This document shows positions 52,792 to 63,779 of a DNA stretch of 64,000 bases, piece by piece (position 1 is the first letter of the stretch; every line of letters begins with the position of its first letter). A program made the position numbers and the translations under genes. The stretch comes from Antedon mediterranea (taxonomy: Eukaryota; Echinodermata; Crinoidea; Comatulida; Antedonidae). The stretch covers positions 3,596,001 through 3,660,000 of the forward strand of contig NC_092679.1 of assembly GCF_964355755.1 (NCBI RefSeq), written 5' to 3'. The notes beneath the pieces were generated by a model that saw nothing but the letters and a program-made list of their open reading frames with translations, was not told the origin of the DNA and did not search any database.

Positions 52792-55700
52792 TTATGAAGG
52801 AATCCAAGCGTTTCCATGGGAATCTGGTTTCTCAGCATGGGCAATATCCCATATCCACGGAGAATCTATAGAAAAAAAATCATTTACATAAATAATAATA
52901 AATGATTTAAATCATAATTAATACAGTATTTTTCTATAAGAAATTTGGAAAATGTTCAACTCCAGACAGCTCTACTAAGAATTTAAATGTCTAAAAACCA
53001 CAAAAATAATTTTCATTTTAATCAATGATAATTGTCAATTTAGATAAGACGTTTTATTACCGTTTGGTTGATATGGCTTCAGTGGTAGATCCCAAGGGAG
53101 TGGAAAGTGTAGACAGTGTTGACTACTTTCAGTGTCATCAACTGAGAAGTGGCCACTGCCATTTTGATTCTAAAAATAGAAGAAACAAAATAATAAGTAA
53201 TTTTGAATTCTAATTTGTTCTTATTAATTAGCATTAATTAAAAATGTCGATGAATTGAATTGAAGATTAACACTTATTCTACAAAATATTTTTGTTCAGA
53301 GTTTAAAAGTAAAGGTTAAAACAAAAGAATTCCAGAATTGCATCGGTTTCATAAACTAGTTCTTAAAATGATAAATCTTCTTATATAGCCTGACTGACAT
53401 ACAGTAGCTAGAATTGTTCCATTGAAATATTAATATTGAATCCAAAATTAAATGATAGCCAACTAAGACCATTTAGGCCTTGTCTGCACTATTAAACTTT
53501 ATGTGACAACAAATGTGATGTGCCCATATATGGACATGATGATGTCATATCACTACCATACAGTATTTAGGTACCGGTATATCACTACCATATTTGGGCA
53601 CATCACACTTTTTTTTGTCAAACTATTTTGATAGTGTAGACAGAGATTTATAGCAATAGATTGGCAAAAAAACTTACAAAATTCTTAGGTAAAAACAGAA
53701 CACCAATTTCATAAGATCTGATCATCAACTGAGTGTTTTTCTTTTCCAAAGCTCCCCACGCAGCTTTCGACAAATTGGCACTTGGAATAAAAATCACAAA
53801 AAAAGAGAAAATAACTTGTCAATGAATTACCATAGTTGATTGGAATAAAATAATATTATATAAATATAATTCTTACATTTACCTCGTTACCAGAAACCAA
53901 GAGATCTTGGACTGGTCAGGAGAAACTCTGGCGTAGGTCTTGATATGCGGACTTGCTCTAGAGCGCCCTCTAACAGAGGAAGACCACTGACTGGATACAA
54001 AAAAGTCAGAAATTGGAATATTCAGATATCATAACTTTGGCCTAAACACATTTTATTAAGTTAGCTGTTTAATTTGAATGGAAAGTACCATACTTACTGT
54101 AAAAAAGTATTAAAATATTGCTGTTTAACGGCCGTCCTTGAACTGTACGGTATCGATGAACCTGCGGGGTAACCCTCTAAACTCACACGAACATTGTCTA
54201 CTGATGGAAAAATCTATGATAAAAATTAAAATCTGAGGCATAGGCCTACTGGACTTGAGGAGCTGTAAAAAGTTATCATTTATTCAATTTATGTTCTCAA
54301 TTCTGTACATCCACGTGTCACTTCTTGTTTACAAACAAACAATAAATAACAACTTACCAGCTTTAGAAGTGATGGATTTGACGTAGTTCCCTTTGGTGTT
54401 GTACTTAGGCTCTCTAACCATTCACTACATAACCATTTGTTCTTATCTGGACCTAAAGAGCCTACACTGGAGAATTGGCCAACCACAGACCAGTTCTTAG
54501 CTTCTGTGTTAGCATGTTCTTTTAATAGCTTTAAAAAAGAAAAAAAATATAGCATAATTAAAGGATGTAAAATGAATTTTACATTTGTAGGAATGAATTT
54601 GAAAGCTTCCAAGGAAATGTTGGGTTTTGGGAGCGTTTCGTATTTAGGGAGACTAATAGTTTTTCATTTTTCTTACTTTTCTGAATTTCATATGTCCCCA
54701 CTTTGTCTTGCTTTCACCTTGATGTCGGCCTGGTACAGACGCAATGATATAAACCCTTTTGACAAAAGAACACAACAATTTAATTTTGTATGTTTTTTTT
54801 ATCGGTGAATCGCAATGTTCTCTCAATAAATGTACATACATACCTGGCCTCTGTCATGTCATGTTGTAAGAGGTGCTCCTGCCACTGTGTTAACCCCTTT
54901 GTTTTATAGGCTGCGATGTACTCAAGCAGGTCAACTTTGAAATTAGTAATGGAGTTTCCCATTTGTGCAGTAGGGGTGTCATGCTTTAGTTTTGGGAAAA
55001 GTGGACTAATCCATACTCTGTAACAGATAATAAGTCTATGTTTCAAGATATTGCCATGCTACAGTTTGATGTGTAGACAGAGCTTGAGAAAAAGACATTG
55101 GCATATTAAAATGTCAACATTTCCATTGCATTTCTTATAAGTTCACAAAGTATACATTATGGCGTTATATACTTCAACCATACCCTTGAGATTTCTGGTG
55201 CCAATCCGATTCAACTAGATTCGCTGTATGTATCACAACCCGTAGTCCATCTTGGTACAATAGAATCATCATTTTACTAAAATAAATTAAATTAATATGT
55301 TTAGCATTATTTATAAAGCTCTGTCTACACTATCAACCTAGTTTGACAAAAAAGTGTGATGTGGCCAAATATGGTAGTGATATGCTTAAATATGGTAGTG
55401 ATATGACATCATCATGTCCATTATTATGGGCACATCACATTTTTTGGCACATAAAGTTTGATAGTGTAGACAGAGCTTTATGTACAAAACAGACCGGGAG
55501 TATATGTGACTAACCTATGATGAGTACCATACATTATCTCCAGCCTAGCCTGGCATAATCGGATATTAGGATATGCCGAAGCCTCCTCATGAAGGGCGTT
55601 TTTGCTATCTTGCTTTTCGCCATGTACCAATAGCAGAGGCTTAGACCTAGAGAAAGACAAACATTAGTTTTATTGCTCTACTGGTGTCAGATGACATTGC

Positions 55701-57601
55701 AGATAGTGTGATGCCAATGGGCTTGTTTGTTTGTTATTATTTCTTTATATCTGGTCGACCTCTTCAGTCAAAGATTGGTCTCTCAGAGGGTCCAGTTATG
55801 ATCAGTGGATGTGATGTACTATTACACTGGGGTAACCCCCTACTCGTCTTAAAAGATGTACTCTAGGTTCTTTAAAGTGCACATGAGCTAGATGTATACA
55901 CTGGACCTACAGTTTATACTTGTTCTACCACCAGAACCATGGAGCGACTGAGCCTCGAACCCTTGCCAATGTTATGGCTACGTAATTATGTTTCCACTGT
56001 CTTAACCGCTCAGCCACTCACTCACTGATGCATTCTTGGCTGGTATTGGAGGAATGCTATTGCAAGCCTGCCTTTTCGCAGGGGTTGTCATCTGCATATT
56101 TACCTGAATTTGGGATGATATTGTCGCATAAGCCAAGAGATGTCATGGCAGTAATTAAATTGTACTGATGCTTCAAGCTCTCCCATCGCTGGTGATAATA
56201 TTTCTGAAAGAAAGAAATCGGGAAGCTCAGCTGCATTGTGAATAACCCATGAACAACCATGGAGGTTTATTTTTACCTCCATTGTACAACTATACCCAAA
56301 AGAGGTTCTGCACATTAAAGGAAGAAGATGAGAAACCAATTATAGTATAATACTGACTAACTATATCGTGACTGCACAAAGTTCGAGACCACACCAGATG
56401 GAAACCAAGTGTGAATACATTATAGTACCTGAAATATCAACAGCTTTATTGTTAAATTTCGGGGAAATTCCTGTGACCTTTGACATGAGAAATGAGAATG
56501 GTTCTGTTGCTTGTAATGCATCAATAACTGTTGAAGTTGTTGCATTGTCAGATCCTTTTTTCTTCTTCGCTGATTGTCCACTATCATCCATGTTTATCTT
56601 CCTTTTCTTTGCTTTTGTATGGCTGGATCCTTCATCACTATCAGATTCTAAAAATAGAAAATTACTAAATCTATTTTCATTGTGAAATACTTACGTCTTT
56701 GGTTGAAATTAAAAATATACATCAATGCTTTAAATATAAGTTTTTTTCTTCAAACAATTGGTTGTTGGTTCTTCACCTGAATGATAAAATTCCTGTTGGT
56801 GGACTGGATTTTTACGATAACATTTTCGTCCATATTCGCAGCGAGGGCGTGGGTCATGCTTAACTGTCATACTCTTTTGCAAATTGTCCGATTTCTCATC
56901 ATTGGGAGACGTTTTTGATTCTGCATTTGTTTTTGGAATTTTGTAAGTGCCGTGTAAAATAGATTGACTAGAGGAAGCCTGATCATTGCAACTAGATTTT
57001 GTTGGTTTCTTTTTTTTACTGGGGGAATGTTCATCATTTTCATCTTCTGATGACCCCGAAATATCGTGACCCAGTGACAATGATAGCGCTAGTTTGGTGT
57101 CTCGGTCCTCCATCTCCCTCCGCCTCCTATCTTCTTCATCAAACTGAAATAATATTGAAAATTTCTTTTATATTAAATTAATATAGAATATAAAATTGTA
57201 ATTAATAATAATTATAATTACATTGATTTGCAAATTTGGTTTTTTTTACCGGTTATCTAACTATAAATAATAAATTATGTAGTACGTCTTATTGGATGAG
57301 TTATCACTTTATATAAAAAATTGAAATAAATATTTTATTTTTATTTTATTGGAGCCCCAGCAGAAGTTAGAACCTGGTGGGGCTCTGTAACTTTATGTAC
57401 AGCAGCTAGTGCAGCACTGTGTCTCAAACAAAGGCAACAGTCTGGCCCCCGGTCTGGCCTAGGAAACCGAGCACATGTTCAAGTCAATTGAATGCCTAAA
57501 CAATCTTCCGAATTGAATCAAATACTGTTTAGCAGAAATTAAAGTTAAATTGTAACCTTTCGTTGTAATTCAGCTGCATATTTTTCATCGGCTGTTTGCA
57601 T
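52792..57601 (-). CDS. TDP1: tyrosyl-DNA phosphodiesterase 1 with N-terminal UIM-like helix and PBZ zinc finger (14 exons)
   Basis: Exons, 5' to 3': 57557-57601, 56777-57143, 56429-56647, 56104-56203, 55515-55646, 55184-55276, 54844-55017, 54677-54755, 54358-54528, 54098-54213, 53883-53990, 53678-53780, 53061-53169, 52792-52865. All are GT-AG, in frame, 629 residues (human 608). TDP1 removes trapped topoisomerase I and other 3' adducts in the nucleus and mitochondria. Both HKD half-sites are present: H287/K289 (GTHHSKMM) and H514/K516 (PHIKTY), with [10 protein letters not shown] after the second. [12 protein letters not shown] and the C-terminal WIWDI and GNAWIPS are conserved. Residues 1-40 are an acidic/basic helix with [12 protein letters not shown]-like. 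Residues 113-137 form a PBZ finger, C117-x5-C123-x6-H130-x5-H136 ([15 protein letters not shown]), which human TDP1 lacks. The gene looks fully functional. Confidence 0.95.
53477..53648. mobile_element. MITE family copy 14 (inverted), TDP1 intron
   Basis: Left end TTGTCTGCACTATTAAACTT, right end TTTTGATAGTGTAGACAGAG. It lies between TDP1 exons 12 and 13. Confidence 0.75.
55061..55085. mobile_element. MITE terminal remnant, TDP1 intron
   Basis: Only one end remains: CAGTTTGATGTGTAGACAGA. Confidence 0.6.
55316..55479. mobile_element. MITE family copy 15, TDP1 intron
   Basis: AAGCTCTGTCTACACTATCA at the left and TTTGATAGTGTAGACAGAGC at the right, between TDP1 exons 5 and 6. It is followed within 40 bp by the exon 5 donor. 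Confidence 0.8.
55941..56020 (-). repeat. tRNA-Ser/Leu-like SINE head, TDP1 intron
   Basis: On the minus strand, TGGCTGAGCGGTTAAGAC is a class II tRNA-like A-box region and GGGTTCGAGGCT a B box. The conserved tail upstream (about 55680-55940) is probably the SINE body. Confidence 0.55.
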
Positions 57602-57789
57602 TTTTCCTCCCAAAACTTTATTTATTGCAAAACGTACATATTGTTGATTTTTTGTTTTGTCAAAAAAAATGTTTTGGTTTTTAAAAAAAAATAGAGGGCG
57701 CTCACATAATTTCTTAATTTTGTATCCTGTGGTTTGATGATTTTTTGGTACGACGGTGTCACGGTGATGATGCGTGTGCCCGTCGTTGT
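57602..57789. promoter_or_regulatory. TDP1 proximal promoter (left half of a split divergent promoter)
   Basis: 188 bp between the TDP1 ATG and the 4-bp target duplication of the inserted retroelement. With 63707-63766 it would have made a head-to-head intergenic region of about 248 bp. Confidence 0.6.
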
Positions 57790-57792
57790 TAA

Positions 57793-59157
57793 AGTGGAGC
57801 TACACTCAGACTTTCTCAGCTTATATTATGTTTAAGTATGTTTAATTGAAAGTGATTACATAACAAAAACCAGGAAAAATACGGAAATATTTTCCAAAAA
57901 CTCATTTCTAAAAAATCGGTCAGAAAATAGTGTTTTTTAACAAATTACAGTTTTTCAGTAACTTAGGGGTTATTAGTTTACAATACGTCGCGAAACGCGT
58001 TACACTTAGCGACTGACGCGTTTTAGTCGCTGGTCAACGCATTGTGGAAATGTCTCCCCTTTGGTAAATTATGTGTCGAAAAATGGGGAATAAATTTTAT
58101 ACACACAATTAATACGATTTGTTTAGGCCTAACTAATATTTCCGATAAGAATGTCAGTATAATTTACATGTAACCTCATGATTTTCACTGTACAACAACA
58201 GCATAATAATCTTATCAGATTGCTTTTAACTTTAAGCCGTCTGCTCAGCCTAGCTAGCCTTGAATTTTTGTCTAGAGGCCTTTGTATTCATAGGCATGGT
58301 CGTTTCGCCCCATTTATCGTTCCTGGGTTTTCTCGCACATTAAGAATTGTGGAACACAAAATCCTATACAGAACAAGAGTAGTAAAGAATAGTAAAGCGA
58401 TGTGCAAAAGCTTAGACCTGACTGAAAAGCAACTACTATTCAGGCACCCTATCATGGCCCATGGGTAGGCCAAGGTCGGGTGACAGCAAAACAAACTTCA
58501 CTGCTGTCAGCCTAGCCTAGCTAGAGGCCAAGCCACTAAGCAGCATCGGTACATACCTACACTCTAGTAGTAGGCCTAGGCCTAGCTTTATTGAATATAT
58601 AGATCAATCTCGTTAAATTTGACATTTTAGTAATAGTCTCATAATCACATTATTACACTGTGAAACATAATAGGGTCACATTCAGAATGTTTTAATATAC
58701 TTTTCGCCCGTCAAAAATAACATCGCGACAAAATAACAGATCGCCAGCTGCAGTAGTGTGATTGTGAAAAATGTCACGTGATCGTACTCCCTAGCAAAAT
58801 AAAAAACCCAATTGGACCTGAACGGGGGAAAGTGTCTATTTACGCAAAATTGCGCAATGTATACGTGATAAAAATACCAGAAATAGAAAGATCTGGAAAA
58901 ATTACATAAATAGACATTTTACATTTTTTTTTTGGTGAAGAAATGAATTTTTTAGGATTATTCAAATATACCCCCCTTTTGCATGTAAAAGAATAGGAAA
59001 TTACAAGGTATCCCCCCAAAACGCAAAAAGGCGTGATTTTCAAGAAAATCGTACTCATTGAAAAAAAATTCAAAAAAATATGAAGTATAAGGGATGATAT
59101 TTTTAAATAATAGTTGAAATGTATGAAAAATAGTAATTTTCTGGGTGGAGCTCCACT
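57793..59157. mobile_element. TTAA-type non-autonomous transposon nested in the LTR edge (1365 bp)
   Basis: TTAA at 57789-57792 and 59158-59161 flank termini AGTGGAGCTACACTCAGA and, in reverse complement, AGTGGAGCTCCACCCAGA. No transposase frame is seen. The target TTAA was made by the junction of the retroelement's TTGT duplication with the LTR terminus TAAAGAG. Confidence 0.85.
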
Positions 59158-59158
59158 T

Positions 59159-59405
59159 TAAAGAGATTGCTAGTCTCTTGGTTTAGTTCCTTAACTACGA
59201 TAAAAGACTACAACGTAAAATACTCACCATTATAATAGTCTTTGTATGATAATAATGAGTGAGTAGTAATAATATAGGTTTAGTTTCCGTCGTCGACTTC
59301 TCAAGTGTCCCAAACGTACTTGACGTTCCAAGATACGCACGGCGGAGCGCGTCCAGGTGTTTAGAACGACGCGCTCCGCTTAAGCATCTGTGTAGCGGCA
59401 CTACA
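59159..59405 (-). repeat. 3' LTR
   Basis: Identical to 63456-63702. It contains a 12-bp perfect hairpin GCGGAGCGCGTC/GACGCGCTCCGC (59342-59353, 59368-59379) and a terminal palindrome AAGAGA...TCTCTT. Confidence 0.93.
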
Positions 59406-59421
59406 TTCCTCCTTGTTTTAT
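59406..59421 (-). other. polypurine tract
   Basis: Minus-strand AAACAAGGAGGAA abuts the start of the 3' LTR, the usual plus-strand priming position. Confidence 0.7.
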
Positions 59422-59682
59422 TTCTTTTGTCTTCCCTCTTGTTCTTCTACACACGTACTTGCTCTTTCTTTCTTTTCTTCCACTTCATTTTTCTTCTTTT
59501 TTTTTTTTTTTAAACACAACAATAACACAACATACATATATAGAATTCCAGAAAAAGAAACTACCAAGAACCCGATAAGAATTTTGTTAAAAAAAATGAA
59601 CTAATTGGAATTAATTTTAAAATTAATTTAAATAAATTTTCATTAATTTGGTCTTGGATTTTTTTTTTTTTTTTTTTTTAAC

Positions 59683-60384
59683 CTATTCATAGGCAAACTG
59701 GGCGTGGAAGTGGAGGTTTTCCAAGAATCCCTCCAACATCCTAACCGCCGCTGCCCTCAGCTGGCCACTTCCCGGCTGAGCCAAACGCTCCACCACCTCC
59801 CGATTGGCATTGAATGCCGACCGCAGAGCAACTCTGTCGGCCCGCCTTAACTGGCATAACAGTGGCGTGGGTGAATGCCGTGCTTGGCGTGATGATGGTC
59901 CGGTCCGTTGACGTAGTGGTCCAGTTGGCTTAGGAAATCGACGGCGTCTGGGCTCCGCCGAGGTAGGCCTACCATACCTCTGGCACAGCTCCACAAATGC
60001 CCCCTTATTATCCCTAGTGGCTCTCGCCACCAGGAAAAGGAGACACCGAGTGTGGAGCAGACCCAGCGGTGACACTAACGGCGATAGAGTGTTCGACTCG
60101 GGCATCTCGAGCCCCGCCGCCTCGCCCATCGACTCCATCATCTTCCTTAGAGATTTGGTGAAGAAGAATCCAGGCTGGATTCTCCCCTCGGCGTTGAAAA
60201 GTGCTACCGCCTTGGTGACACTCCCGCCGCACTCCGGAACGAGTTTCACTAACTCCTGGATGAAACTCCAGCGCCGAGATGAGGTGGTCGACGATACCTC
60301 CGGCGATGTTTCCGTCATGAATGGCGGTATGTGGTGCGTCAGGTGTTGTTTTGGGTTTTCGGGCACCCGGCCACATCCTGCCAC
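59683..60384 (-). CDS. retroelement ORF with a C2H2-like finger at its N-terminal side
   Basis: 233 codons from the first ATG, but the frame is open about 245 nt further upstream without a Met. Just around the ATG lies FLCPVAGCGRVP followed by HLTHH, a C-x4-C...H-x3-H arrangement. The rest is Arg/Leu-rich and helical (LVKLVPECGG, LRRADRVALRSAFN). I recognise neither a gag nor a polymerase domain. The stop is followed by GTT and a run of 21 A. Possibly a gag-like or captured protein. Confidence 0.5.
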   Translation of the reverse strand: MAGCGRVPENPKQHLTHHIPPFMTETSPEVSSTTSSRRWSFIQELVKLVPECGGSVTKAVALFNAEGRIQPGFFFTKSLRKMMESMGEAAGLEMPESNTLSPLVSPLGLLHTRCLLFLVARATRDNKGAFVELCQRYGRPTSAEPRRRRFPKPTGPLRQRTGPSSRQARHSPTPLLCQLRRADRVALRSAFNANREVVERLAQPGSGQLRAAAVRMLEGFLENLHFHAQFAYE

Positions 60385-60580
60385 TGGACACAGGAATGCC
60401 CGACGTGACCGCTTACCCGATTCCCTCTGACCGCCTTCAGGATGAGGTCTTTTGTTGTCTTTCGACCGTTTGTCGGCCTTTCCCTGAGATTTAACTTTTG
60501 GTACCGCCCCAGCACTAGGTGGAACAGCACTGGTCGCCGTACCAACGAGACGGACGTCTCGGCACGCAAAGTCCGACTCC

Positions 60581-60853
60581 TTACTTTCCCGGAGTTCGCC
60601 ATACCTTCACGGCTGGCGCGGCGGGAAGCAACTCTTTACGAAAAATGGAGGGGGACTTTGGCCTCTCCGGCGATCCTGCCAAGACCTCTGGCGTCTCTCT
60701 GCCCTCAACTACTGGCGGATCTAGGTCCCCGACCTCCATCGCCACATCATCTTCTTCCAATCCAGTAGGTGAAGGTGGAGACTTTCGTTTCGCAGCTGGT
60801 TTGCCCAACGGCGGGAAGTCTTCCACCTGCAGCAGGAACAATTCCTCCTCCAC
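60581..60853 (-). CDS. upstream retroelement ORF, acidic, Pro-rich
   Basis: 90 codons from ATG; motif VEDFPPLGKP, then acidic and proline-rich sequence. It overlaps, in a different frame, the upstream open extension of the 59683-60384 frame, so the two may be one product joined by frameshift or splicing. Function unknown. Confidence 0.4.
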   Translation of the reverse strand: MEEELFLLQVEDFPPLGKPAAKRKSPPSPTGLEEDDVAMEVGDLDPPVVEGRETPEVLAGSPERPKSPSIFRKELLPAAPAVKVWRTPGK

Positions 60854-61112
60854 CCGTTACTCGATCGGAAGTAGTGCAGTTATCCATCTGTAGAACATTA
60901 AGAGGCAAAACACAAGTTTAGTACAAGATAGTATTTCTACCCCTCGATTACAAATTGTTGGGACGAAAACTCTGGCGCCTGTAACAAATAGTGATCATCG
61001 TTTCCGCCAGAGGAGTTCCATCTCTTCAGAGCTAGTTACCGAGTTATTTGTGATGTCACTGCCGTGAAGAATGTACAACGTAAGTAGTACATGGCTGCTT
61101 TCCCCTTCTTAC

Positions 61113-61512
61113 CTAAGTGAAAAGCCTCCTTCTTCTCCGCCAGGTTCCATCCACTAATTCGGGCATACCCCTCAAATCTATCCCAGAAAATGTACCAGTC
61201 ATTTTGACCGAAAAATTCCAGGTTTCTCTGAGGGCGGAAAGGTAGTCTTTTCCGACGCTCACCTCGCCATTCTTCATTATGACCGTATCAACCACGCAAG
61301 TGGTCCTTATCCACATAATAAACTCAGCGCGGATCACGTCCGAAACTTCCGCCATTACTCTCTCTTCGGACGTACTCGTTCGTATTGTCCTCATTACCGC
61401 GATCTCGATTATTGTAATCGAAACCTCGACAATCAGTCCGAACTTGACCGACATCGTCCGAGTAGCGTTTATAGCGATTACCGTCGATGTACCCCCGTGG
61501 CGACATTCCCAT
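61113..61512 (-). other. broken open frames in the retroelement leader
   Basis: Overlapping short frames, one rich in Arg, Asp, Gly and Asn (GFDYNNRDRG). Perhaps a degraded nucleic-acid-binding segment; I cannot assign it. Confidence 0.25.
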
Positions 61513-61565
61513 TCTACTACCCCGATTTAGGATACCGTCGTTCAGGCTCTCAATCTCTTGCGTCC

Positions 61566-61591
61566 CCTTGGCGATTTATTGATCGCCAAGG
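61566..61591. repeat. perfect 10-bp hairpin
   Basis: CCTTGGCGAT and ATCGCCAAGG separated by 6 nt, inside the retroelement. Confidence 0.8.
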
Positions 61592-63099
61592 AACTCGACC
61601 GCGTTCCATAGGCACAAACCTATTGGACTCGCCGCCAGTTCGTTCATCGAAACGCATGTTGTCATCGCCCGGATAATGAGAGTCGCGATTTCAGATATAT
61701 ATCCCCATTAGGAGTACCGTAGTTGGAACAGGAATTAAACCGCCTATCCGTGGTTACATTCGACACAGAGTTAACGTCAGGAATAACTGCTCCTCCTCCC
61801 CGTTAAAACTAATCGACGCATTCTTTGAAGTCACCTGATTATTAGGATTAACTTCAAGATCAGACCCTTCAAAGACCTCGTCAGTAGGCCTACTATCCTT
61901 TTATGATTTTCGCCGATGTCGGCGCATTATTATTATTTTTTTTTTTTAACAGAGCCGGTGTTTTCTTCGTTATAAGCAAACACCGAATAAAGCACGTAGT
62001 TGATGCCATAGCTATCTAGATCCGCAACTAATGTTACGTCTCCCGATCGCGTGCAAGAACTCGTTCCGACCTCCAACCATTTCCCTCAGTCTTCTTACAT
62101 TGAGCGAACTAGTTTACCATAAAACTCGCCCTTCTTCTAGTATACTCGTTCAGAATTACCGAGTTATACTGTGACTGAACTAAATTTACCGTTGGAATCT
62201 TTCGATTGAATTAGTCACCAATGAATATAGTAGGCACATTTAGAAAGAACACACAGAACAATATCACAATGTAAGCTAATAATAAATTCTTTATAATCTC
62301 AAATAAATGTCCACTTCATTGATTCCTAAAACAACTACAACCCAACAGTAAATAATCGCGTAATAATAGAATTCTGAGCATTCGCCTGAGCGTACCGGCG
62401 TGCGTATAACTAAAACTCACATCCACATCCTAAAAATAGTATTCTAAAAATAGGATGTTTCCGTAAAGTAAATAGCCAATCAGAAACTATTAGTACATAG
62501 AATTCTTTCATTGCTCAACCAATCAGAGTACGCACGTAACCGCGTCATCATCGCTTGCATTTTCATTCCCTGGATAATGCACAGCTCGCGCTGCACGACC
62601 CTCTCAGGTAGCGAGTATGCAAATGCAATGATCTGATTGGTTGCTGTAGCCTAGCCAATCGTATGATGCCCAAGAACTGCGCGGCAGTTTGTTCGAATGG
62701 AATAAGACCTGGATGAGATCTGAAACAATATCGAAAAACTATCGCCCAAAACTCGGCGGAGGATCTAGGCCTAGGCCTACCCTAATACAATTGACCAGCA
62801 TACCTTAAATACATTCTCAACCATCTTCCCTCTAATGAAAAAAGATTTTTTTTTTTTTTCAAAAAAGGCAAAGTTTTTATTTATTTTTGCGGTTCCTGAT
62901 AAACTAATAAAATAAATAAATAAATTCTTCCAACACTGCCGACTTCCAGTGAAGGAACGACGTAAACAACTGGCCCACTAATATGATAACTAATACTTCC
63001 TAGCCTAACCTAATCGTATATTTTCCGAAATCGGACATGAAACACGGGCCATGTCGTTTCGTTCTGGAATCACGAGTCCAACGGGTTAACATACAAAAC

Positions 63100-63165
63100 C
63101 CATTCACGTCACGAGCGTGAACATTCATGTCACGAGCATGAAATTCATGTCACGAGCATGAATAA
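63100..63165. repeat. three short palindromic repeats in the retroelement leader
   Basis: TTCAYGTCACGAGCRTGAA three times in about 60 bp; each copy can pair TTCATG with CATGAA. Confidence 0.75.
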
Positions 63166-63440
63166 TAATATTCTTATACTACAGTTTCATCTAGTATAGG
63201 CCAATCGTTCATTCGTCGAATATTAAATATAAAAAATAAAAATAATAAATCCTAATCAACTATTCATCCCCAACTCTCGGAGAGAACATGAACTTATAAG
63301 AAACATTCACGTTCTTATCCTCGAGACGGTGATGAATTGGCGAGGGCCGATACATTGCATGTAAATAAATAAACAACGCACGTCCAGATTCGCGTATTTT
63401 CGGCGTCATATTTCGCCAGAAAAATATCGCGTTTAATTTT

Positions 63441-63454
63441 AATCCTCGTCGCCA
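63441..63454 (-). other. primer-binding site, complementary to tRNA-Ser(GCU) 3' end
   Basis: Minus-strand TGGCGACGAGGATT starts one base after the 5' LTR. Its complement AATCCTCGTCGCCA matches the 3' end of animal tRNA-Ser(GCU) as I recall it. Confidence 0.65.
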
Positions 63455-63455
63455 A

Positions 63456-63702
63456 TAAAGAGATTGCTAGTCTCTTGGTTTAGTTCCTTAACTACGATAA
63501 AAGACTACAACGTAAAATACTCACCATTATAATAGTCTTTGTATGATAATAATGAGTGAGTAGTAATAATATAGGTTTAGTTTCCGTCGTCGACTTCTCA
63601 AGTGTCCCAAACGTACTTGACGTTCCAAGATACGCACGGCGGAGCGCGTCCAGGTGTTTAGAACGACGCGCTCCGCTTAAGCATCTGTGTAGCGGCACTA
63701 CA
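63456..63702 (-). repeat. 5' LTR
   Basis: Identical to the 3' LTR over its full length. It ends only 64 bp before the start codon of the right-edge gene and reads away from it. Confidence 0.93.
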
Positions 63703-63766
63703 TTGTTTTTAGGCTTGGCTAGTTAGGAATTTTTTTAAATTTCACTGTATTTTAGCTACACAAACC

Positions 63767-63779
63767 ATGGCTTCAAACG
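63767..63779 (+). CDS. first coding exon of a gene leaving the window
   Basis: CAAACCATGG is an ideal Kozak context; ATG GCT TCA AAC G is followed by a perfect donor GTAAGT (63780). A TATTTTAG acceptor-like word ends at 63755, so the visible 5' UTR may start at 63756 or further up. Only four residues (MASN) are seen, so the product cannot be read. In humans, TDP1 lies head-to-head with EFCAB11, which makes that a candidate by position only. Confidence 0.6.

Follow-up and report, generated by a model that had tools for sequence, protein, structure and literature searches.

Nested insertion of a TTAA-specific DNA element and a long terminal repeat retroelement upstream of TDP1 in Antedon mediterranea

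Joints, duplications and the TTAA element

A long terminal repeat (LTR) retroelement of 4,544 bp lies on the minus strand (59159-63702) of a 64,000-nucleotide stretch of the Antedon mediterranea genome (assembly GCF_964355755.1, contig NC_092679.1, positions 3,596,001 to 3,660,000; hereafter the window, numbered from its first base), between two divergent genes, TDP1 and a gene of C19orf47 type. Such an element should be flanked by a target site duplication (TSD), yet the four bases immediately to the left of its 3' LTR are ACTT and those on its far side are TTGT. Where, then, is the duplication?

It is found beyond a second element. A DNA element adjoins the 3' LTR, and the four bases on its other side are TTGT, matching those beyond the 5' LTR (57786-57789 and 63703-63706). 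Agreement of two random 4-mers by chance is about 0.006 at this composition, and TSDs of 4 bp are present around other copies of the retroelement. The DNA element has TTAA at both ends (57789-57792 and 59158-59161), and the right-hand TTAA consists of one T followed by the TAA of the LTR. The sequence-only reading had proposed a TTGT duplication around the retroelement that goes unseen unless the insertions are read as nested, a TTAA born at the joint, and a TTAA-specific transposon that landed exactly there and displaced one TTGT by 1.37 kb. All of this was borne out, with a net gain of 1,369 bp from the DNA element. We therefore read the locus as the product of two unrelated recent insertions, that of the retroelement followed by that of the DNA element on its edge, and give this a probability of about 0.94.

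The order is set by the LTR. Its TAA is present in 10 of 10 host-side right edges of other copies, and since the TAA of the right-hand TTAA thus belongs to the LTR in every right edge read, the retroelement came first and the target of the DNA element already held the LTR. The joint between the LTR and the DNA element occurs once in the genome, allowing up to two mismatches, and each host flank has a single genome match, itself. This LTR family often makes a TTAA target, the four bases being present at five of 11 outer 3' LTR edges when the window's is counted. As the retroelement itself holds 25 TTAAs, nothing special is required to explain why the joint was hit.

In the course of events that we propose, a non-autonomous LTR retroelement would have inserted in minus-strand orientation between TDP1 and the C19orf47-type gene, duplicating TTGT, presumably moved in trans by the proteins of a longer relative. 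The outer end of the LTR reads ...CTCTTTA, and a TTAA would form at the joint whenever the duplicated target brings an A next to it, as it does here. This TTAA would then have been entered and duplicated by a non-autonomous, TTAA-specific DNA element that has Kolobok-type ends, with a transposase probably supplied in trans, and the left TTGT would have been moved away from its LTR. The empty site would be expected to read ...CCCGTCGTTGT directly followed by TTTTAGGC...

Nested transposon insertions are used for relative dating, and the present case is like them in that one element lies within or against an older one and the duplications give the order; it differs in that the younger element occupies the joint itself and so conceals the duplication of the older. 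We regard it as a clean but ordinary nested insertion, each step being a known kind of process. It shows that an apparently missing TSD can be merely hidden, where a TTAA-targeting element sits on a joint that the retroelement made. Any LTR that ends in TTTA will create a TTAA if an A comes next in the target, and such masking may therefore be met in other genomes, where programs that look for TSDs could be misled. A literature search, covering titles and abstract openings, returned nothing bearing on nested insertion with TTAA and an LTR.

The DNA element has a body of 1,365 bp (1,373 bp with both TTAAs) and a terminal inverted repeat (57789-57810 and 59140-59161). Its 17-base end has 220 exact matches in the genome. 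From 236 candidates, 40 matches were scored, the window's included, and 30 of the other 39 have flush TTAA at both ends, the remaining nine having worn, cut or shifted ends. Among the matches listed, four end pairs are more than 2 kb apart; three of them (3.1-3.4 kb) are the same DNA element carrying other DNA, and the fourth is an interrupted copy (L055) that was read in part. The TTAA duplications, terminal inverted repeats and AG...CT ends are like those of Kolobok elements and their non-autonomous families; one published account gives 5'-RR...YY-3' termini as the distinction of Kolobok from piggyBac (PMC9587614). The element is unlike them in its coding content: no transposase was found in the window's copy, and 10 of the 15 open reading frames (ORFs) listed for the three 3.1-3.4 kb copies gave 0 Pfam matches, no genome-wide transposase profile search having been made. 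Because no transposase was found in these longer copies, the Kolobok assignment is a likeness of ends, short of proven membership.

It is unlikely that the element targets TA, as Tc1/mariner elements do, or is a piggyBac. TA is contained in TTAA, and piggyBac likewise duplicates TTAA according to that account (PMC9587614), but the full TTAA stands on both sides of the 30 copies mentioned, and the AG...CT termini obey the rule that separates Kolobok from piggyBac there. A target of TA only was rejected, since the outer T and A would then vary.

The LTR-borne start codon and TDP1

The LTR nearer to TDP1 is the 3' LTR, because the primer-binding site TGGCGACGAGG follows the right-hand LTR and the polypurine tract AAGGAGGAA precedes the left-hand one. 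The primer-binding site is presumably that of a tRNA-Ser. It had been claimed that the 3' LTR now points at the TDP1 start. The direction holds, since retroelement and gene share the minus strand, but 1.56 kb, the DNA element among them, separate the LTR from the TDP1 ATG. The LTR beside the C19orf47-type gene is the 5' LTR and points away from that gene.

Both LTRs carry an ATG directly followed by a splice-donor-like GTGAGT (59222-59231 and 63519-63528, minus strand). This ATG/GTGAGT module is in phase 0 with the predicted exon 2 of TDP1, which begins at 57143 behind the acceptor tatttcag/TTTGATG, and the predicted intron (59227-57144) is 2,084 bp. We take TDP1's own first donor, AAG/GTTACA, to be farther from the usual consensus. 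What is new here is that the phase of the LTR module with exon 2 predicts a specific transcript: 59228 would be joined to 57143 to give an in-frame M-FDEED..., the M replacing the 15 residues of exon 1. The 3' LTR would then be a portable start for TDP1 and the insertion a recent, possibly polymorphic change in the switching on of a repair gene, an outcome that we consider unlikely. The module is also in phase with an acceptor-like site, CTGCTGCAG, ahead of the retroelement's own 3' ORF, and the retroelement may splice the LTR start codon onto that ORF. The module is shared by 20 of the 21 other LTR places that were read, the match at the exception being cut short (L072 and one L077 match are the same LTR and are counted once). 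A literature search of the same scope (titles and abstract openings) found nothing bearing on an LTR start codon with a donor.

Before the insertions the two predicted start codons were 248 bp apart, in keeping with the earlier estimate of about 248 bp, with 188 host bases remaining on the TDP1 side and 60 on the other. The inserted total (57790-63706) is 5,917 bp, made up of 4,544 + 4 + 1,369. Eight simple promoter motifs tried on this 248-bp host interval gave a single GGGCGC, which is uninformative. The earlier proposal that the interval was a compact shared promoter, split by the insertions, is a conjecture, 188 bp of it still adjoining TDP1.

A stronger proposal, that the insertion is functional and the 3' LTR has already become the TDP1 promoter, seems improbable. 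The shared strand, a TATAT-like sequence seen by eye in the LTR and the phase-0 module are what speak for it, but the distance and the second element separate the LTR from the gene, the original 188 bp beside TDP1 are still present, and the module, being common to the LTR family, was not selected for TDP1. As to any promoter effect of the two insertions, we infer that TDP1 most likely keeps its nearest 188 bp and stays transcribed, that the two genes would have ceased to have a single short upstream interval in common, and that occasional LTR-started TDP1 transcripts are possible. At this locus it can be tested at little cost whether a newly arrived LTR assumes control of a repair gene.

Retroelement family, age and remaining alternatives

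The direct repeat that marks the retroelement spans 59159-59407 and 63456-63704 (100% identity), within which the LTRs proper are 247 bp. The genome contains 35 LTR matches, the window's two included, and 20 of the 33 others were fetched. There are seven other full LTR pairs, their starts 4,285-4,331 bp apart. All 19 host-side LTR edges in other copies (9 left, 10 right) are flush as TGTAG...CTCTTTA beside differing host DNA. LTRs usually, though not universally, end in TG...CA; the window retroelement does not, its LTRs and 19 of the 20 others fetched having TG...TA termini (the exception, L058, is without the last two bases). Exact 4-bp TSDs were found at three of the five other unfused full pairs (AAAC, ATAC and GTAG) and at one solo LTR (CTAT). 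The polypurine tract precedes 11 other LTRs, in one case with a change. At C9:975918-985014 (L056-L059), two retroelement copies are joined tail to tail, the ends of their 3' LTRs abutting directly with no host DNA between them.

No pol domain was found in the five ORFs scanned in the window copy. A longer relative (L077, C5:16524300-16531900) shares the 3' ORF and shows RT_RNaseH (3.3e-20) and a gag match (PF03732, 0.0025) that is under the family cut-off. It also has a PHD finger (PF00628, 1.2e-9; L077:2796-3080) between RNase H and the 3' ORF. The window's family would thus be a pol-less derivative that is mobilised in trans. It is like LTR retrotransposons of the Ty3/gypsy type and their non-autonomous, pol-less derivatives in its LTR pair, TG start and short TSD, in a primer-binding site that adjoins the 5' LTR and a polypurine tract that precedes the 3' LTR, and, through the longer relative, in the RT_RNaseH and the weak gag match. 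It is unlike them in the window copy's want of a detected pol, in LTRs that end in TA and not CA, and in an additional 3' ORF that matches nothing in Pfam, together with the PHD finger of the relative. As regards the Ty3 order of RT, RNase H and integrase, the window ORFs gave 0 pol domains and the relative shows RT_RNaseH only.

The 3' ORF frame of the window retroelement is interrupted upstream, and 27 bp are missing from it, a single gap relative to eight of nine other copies. Within the stretch read, an open frame of 315-333 aa runs through the region in 9 of 9 copies compared (L078-L086); because the frames are open in all of these, the 3' ORF may matter to the retroelement.

The claims that the LTRs are identical (247/247, 0 mismatches) and the retroelement young were both upheld. 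Among LTR pairs, the window's included, five of eight are identical, one has 0 mismatches but lacks two bases (at the fused joint), and two have 5 and 6 mismatches. Aligned with the copy at C4:35556204-35558910 (L090), the window retroelement has 8 substitutions in 2,703 columns, all at 63081-63564, while 61000-63080 differs by 0 substitutions over 2,081 bp and by one 1-base indel; this agreement with a copy elsewhere and the identical LTRs mark the retroelement as young. LTR and leader differ from the C4 copy, the LTR having its exact match on C1 and C9; the retroelement is a mosaic of the kind that template switching or conversion would make. The further claim that the transposon is younger still holds for the order of insertion. 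At the rates of the DNA element, 1.1 to 2.5 differences between the LTRs are expected (probability of zero 0.33 to 0.08), so that finding none is not surprising.

A number of observations weigh against two recent insertions into a short intergenic space, besides the missing transposase. The window's copy of the DNA element carries three private substitutions among 39 copies (the window's and 38 others, the partial L055 being dropped), with a terminal branch of 0.005 against a median of 0.003, and has gaps of 21 bp (bases all present in 37 of 38 others) and 11 bp (38 of 38). These private marks are somewhat more than might be expected of an element that arrived after such a young retroelement; its source copy may be absent from those scored, and the marks may predate its arrival. 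One full-length retroelement copy (C4:35554330) is without a matching TSD, another (C4:13215705) has a TSD that agrees at 3 of 4 bases only, and in the C9 fused pair one LTR lacks its last two bases and the outside duplications do not match. A search of the assembly for an empty allele gave nothing (the joined 33-mer had 0 matches with up to three mismatches), which leaves the ancestral state unseen but is expected if the assembly represents one haplotype. Both start codons that delimit the 248 bp are predicted from ORFs and splice signals, and since a short T-rich stretch and then AG lie 11 bases ahead of the ATG of the C19orf47-type gene, the transcription start of that gene may lie outside the 60 bp; were it within 57602-57789, the first intron of that gene would contain the insert.

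Two alternatives to the nested insertion remain. The arrangement could be an assembly artefact of identical repeats, which the identical LTRs and the 2 kb of inside sequence that differs from another locus by a single 1-base indel might invite. Against this stand the exact TSD and TTAA signatures at every joint, matching duplications not being expected from a misjoin, as well as host flanks without a second match, the unique joint between LTR and DNA element, and gaps peculiar to the window copy in both elements; we consider an artefact very unlikely. Least credible of all is an earlier arrival of the DNA element, with the retroelement inserted beside it later and its target duplication lost or mutated: the right-hand TTAA overlaps the left LTR edge and leaves the order ambiguous by eye, and there is a further full-length copy around which no TSD matches, but this order was rejected because the TAA is part of the LTR in 10 of 10 right edges read, and ACTT and TTGT beside the LTR pair do not match whereas TTGT matches across the whole nest.

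Flanking genes and feature coordinates

The features of the locus are collected in Table 1.

Table 1. Features of the nested insertion and its flanking genes (window positions)
Feature	Position	Strand	Basis and remarks
TDP1, remainder in window	53648-57143	-	PF10283, PF06087, PDB TDP1 chains; exon ORFs down to 53648
TDP1, first coding exon (predicted)	57557-57601	-	ORF and sequence, exon chain inferred; ATG 57601-57599; phase-0 donor
TTGT, left copy of retroelement target duplication	57786-57789	+	Sequence; 4-bp TSD length as in other copies
Non-autonomous DNA element with two TTAA copies	57789-59161	.	Inverted repeat, other copies; termini 5'-AG...CT-3'
3' LTR	59159-59405	-	Direct repeat and other copies; outermost TAA shared with right-hand TTAA
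ATG, then splice-donor-like GTGAGT, in 3' LTR	59226-59230	-	Start codon 59230-59228, GT 59227-59226
Polypurine tract adjoining 3' LTR	59406-59414	-	Sequence; identical or nearly so in 11 other copies
Retroelement 3' ORF	59683-60606	-	CPVAGC...HLTHH finger-like motif; no Pfam match
Gag-like frame fragment	61036-61287	-	Resembles by eye the gag ORF of longer relative L077
Primer-binding site	63444-63454	-	Sequence; same after 8 other 5' LTRs
5' LTR	63456-63702	-	Direct repeat and other copies; points away from C19orf47-type gene
TTGT, right copy of target duplication	63703-63706	+	Sequence
C19orf47-type SAM gene, first coding exon (predicted, MASN...)	63767-63779	+	Sequence; donor GTAAGT

The left-hand gene had been named TDP1, correctly so: the Tyr-DNA_phospho domain (PF06087) was matched in seven minus-strand exon ORFs, one of which also matches PDB TDP1 chains (5.8e-14). 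An N-terminal PBZ (poly-ADP-ribose-binding) zinc finger is present in this TDP1 (PF10283, 3.7e-11; ORF 56730-57167, minus strand), with a UIM-like stretch, seen by eye, ahead of it. To our knowledge human TDP1 has no PBZ finger. Titles and abstract openings in the literature yielded nothing bearing on TDP1 with PBZ, nor on TDP1 with C19orf47 or a bidirectional promoter.

Further exons of the right-hand gene lie just to the right of the window and match SAM_4 (2.3e-29) and DUF5577 (2.7e-15), the profiles found there being PF18017 and PF17740; we take this pair of domains to denote C19orf47. EFCAB11, which from human gene order would presumably be expected beside TDP1, was rejected as the neighbour, the domains being of C19orf47 type. 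Downstream of the C19orf47-type gene is a satellite array of 68-bp units (24.7 copies, with a higher-order period of 271 bp; L076:7162-8847).

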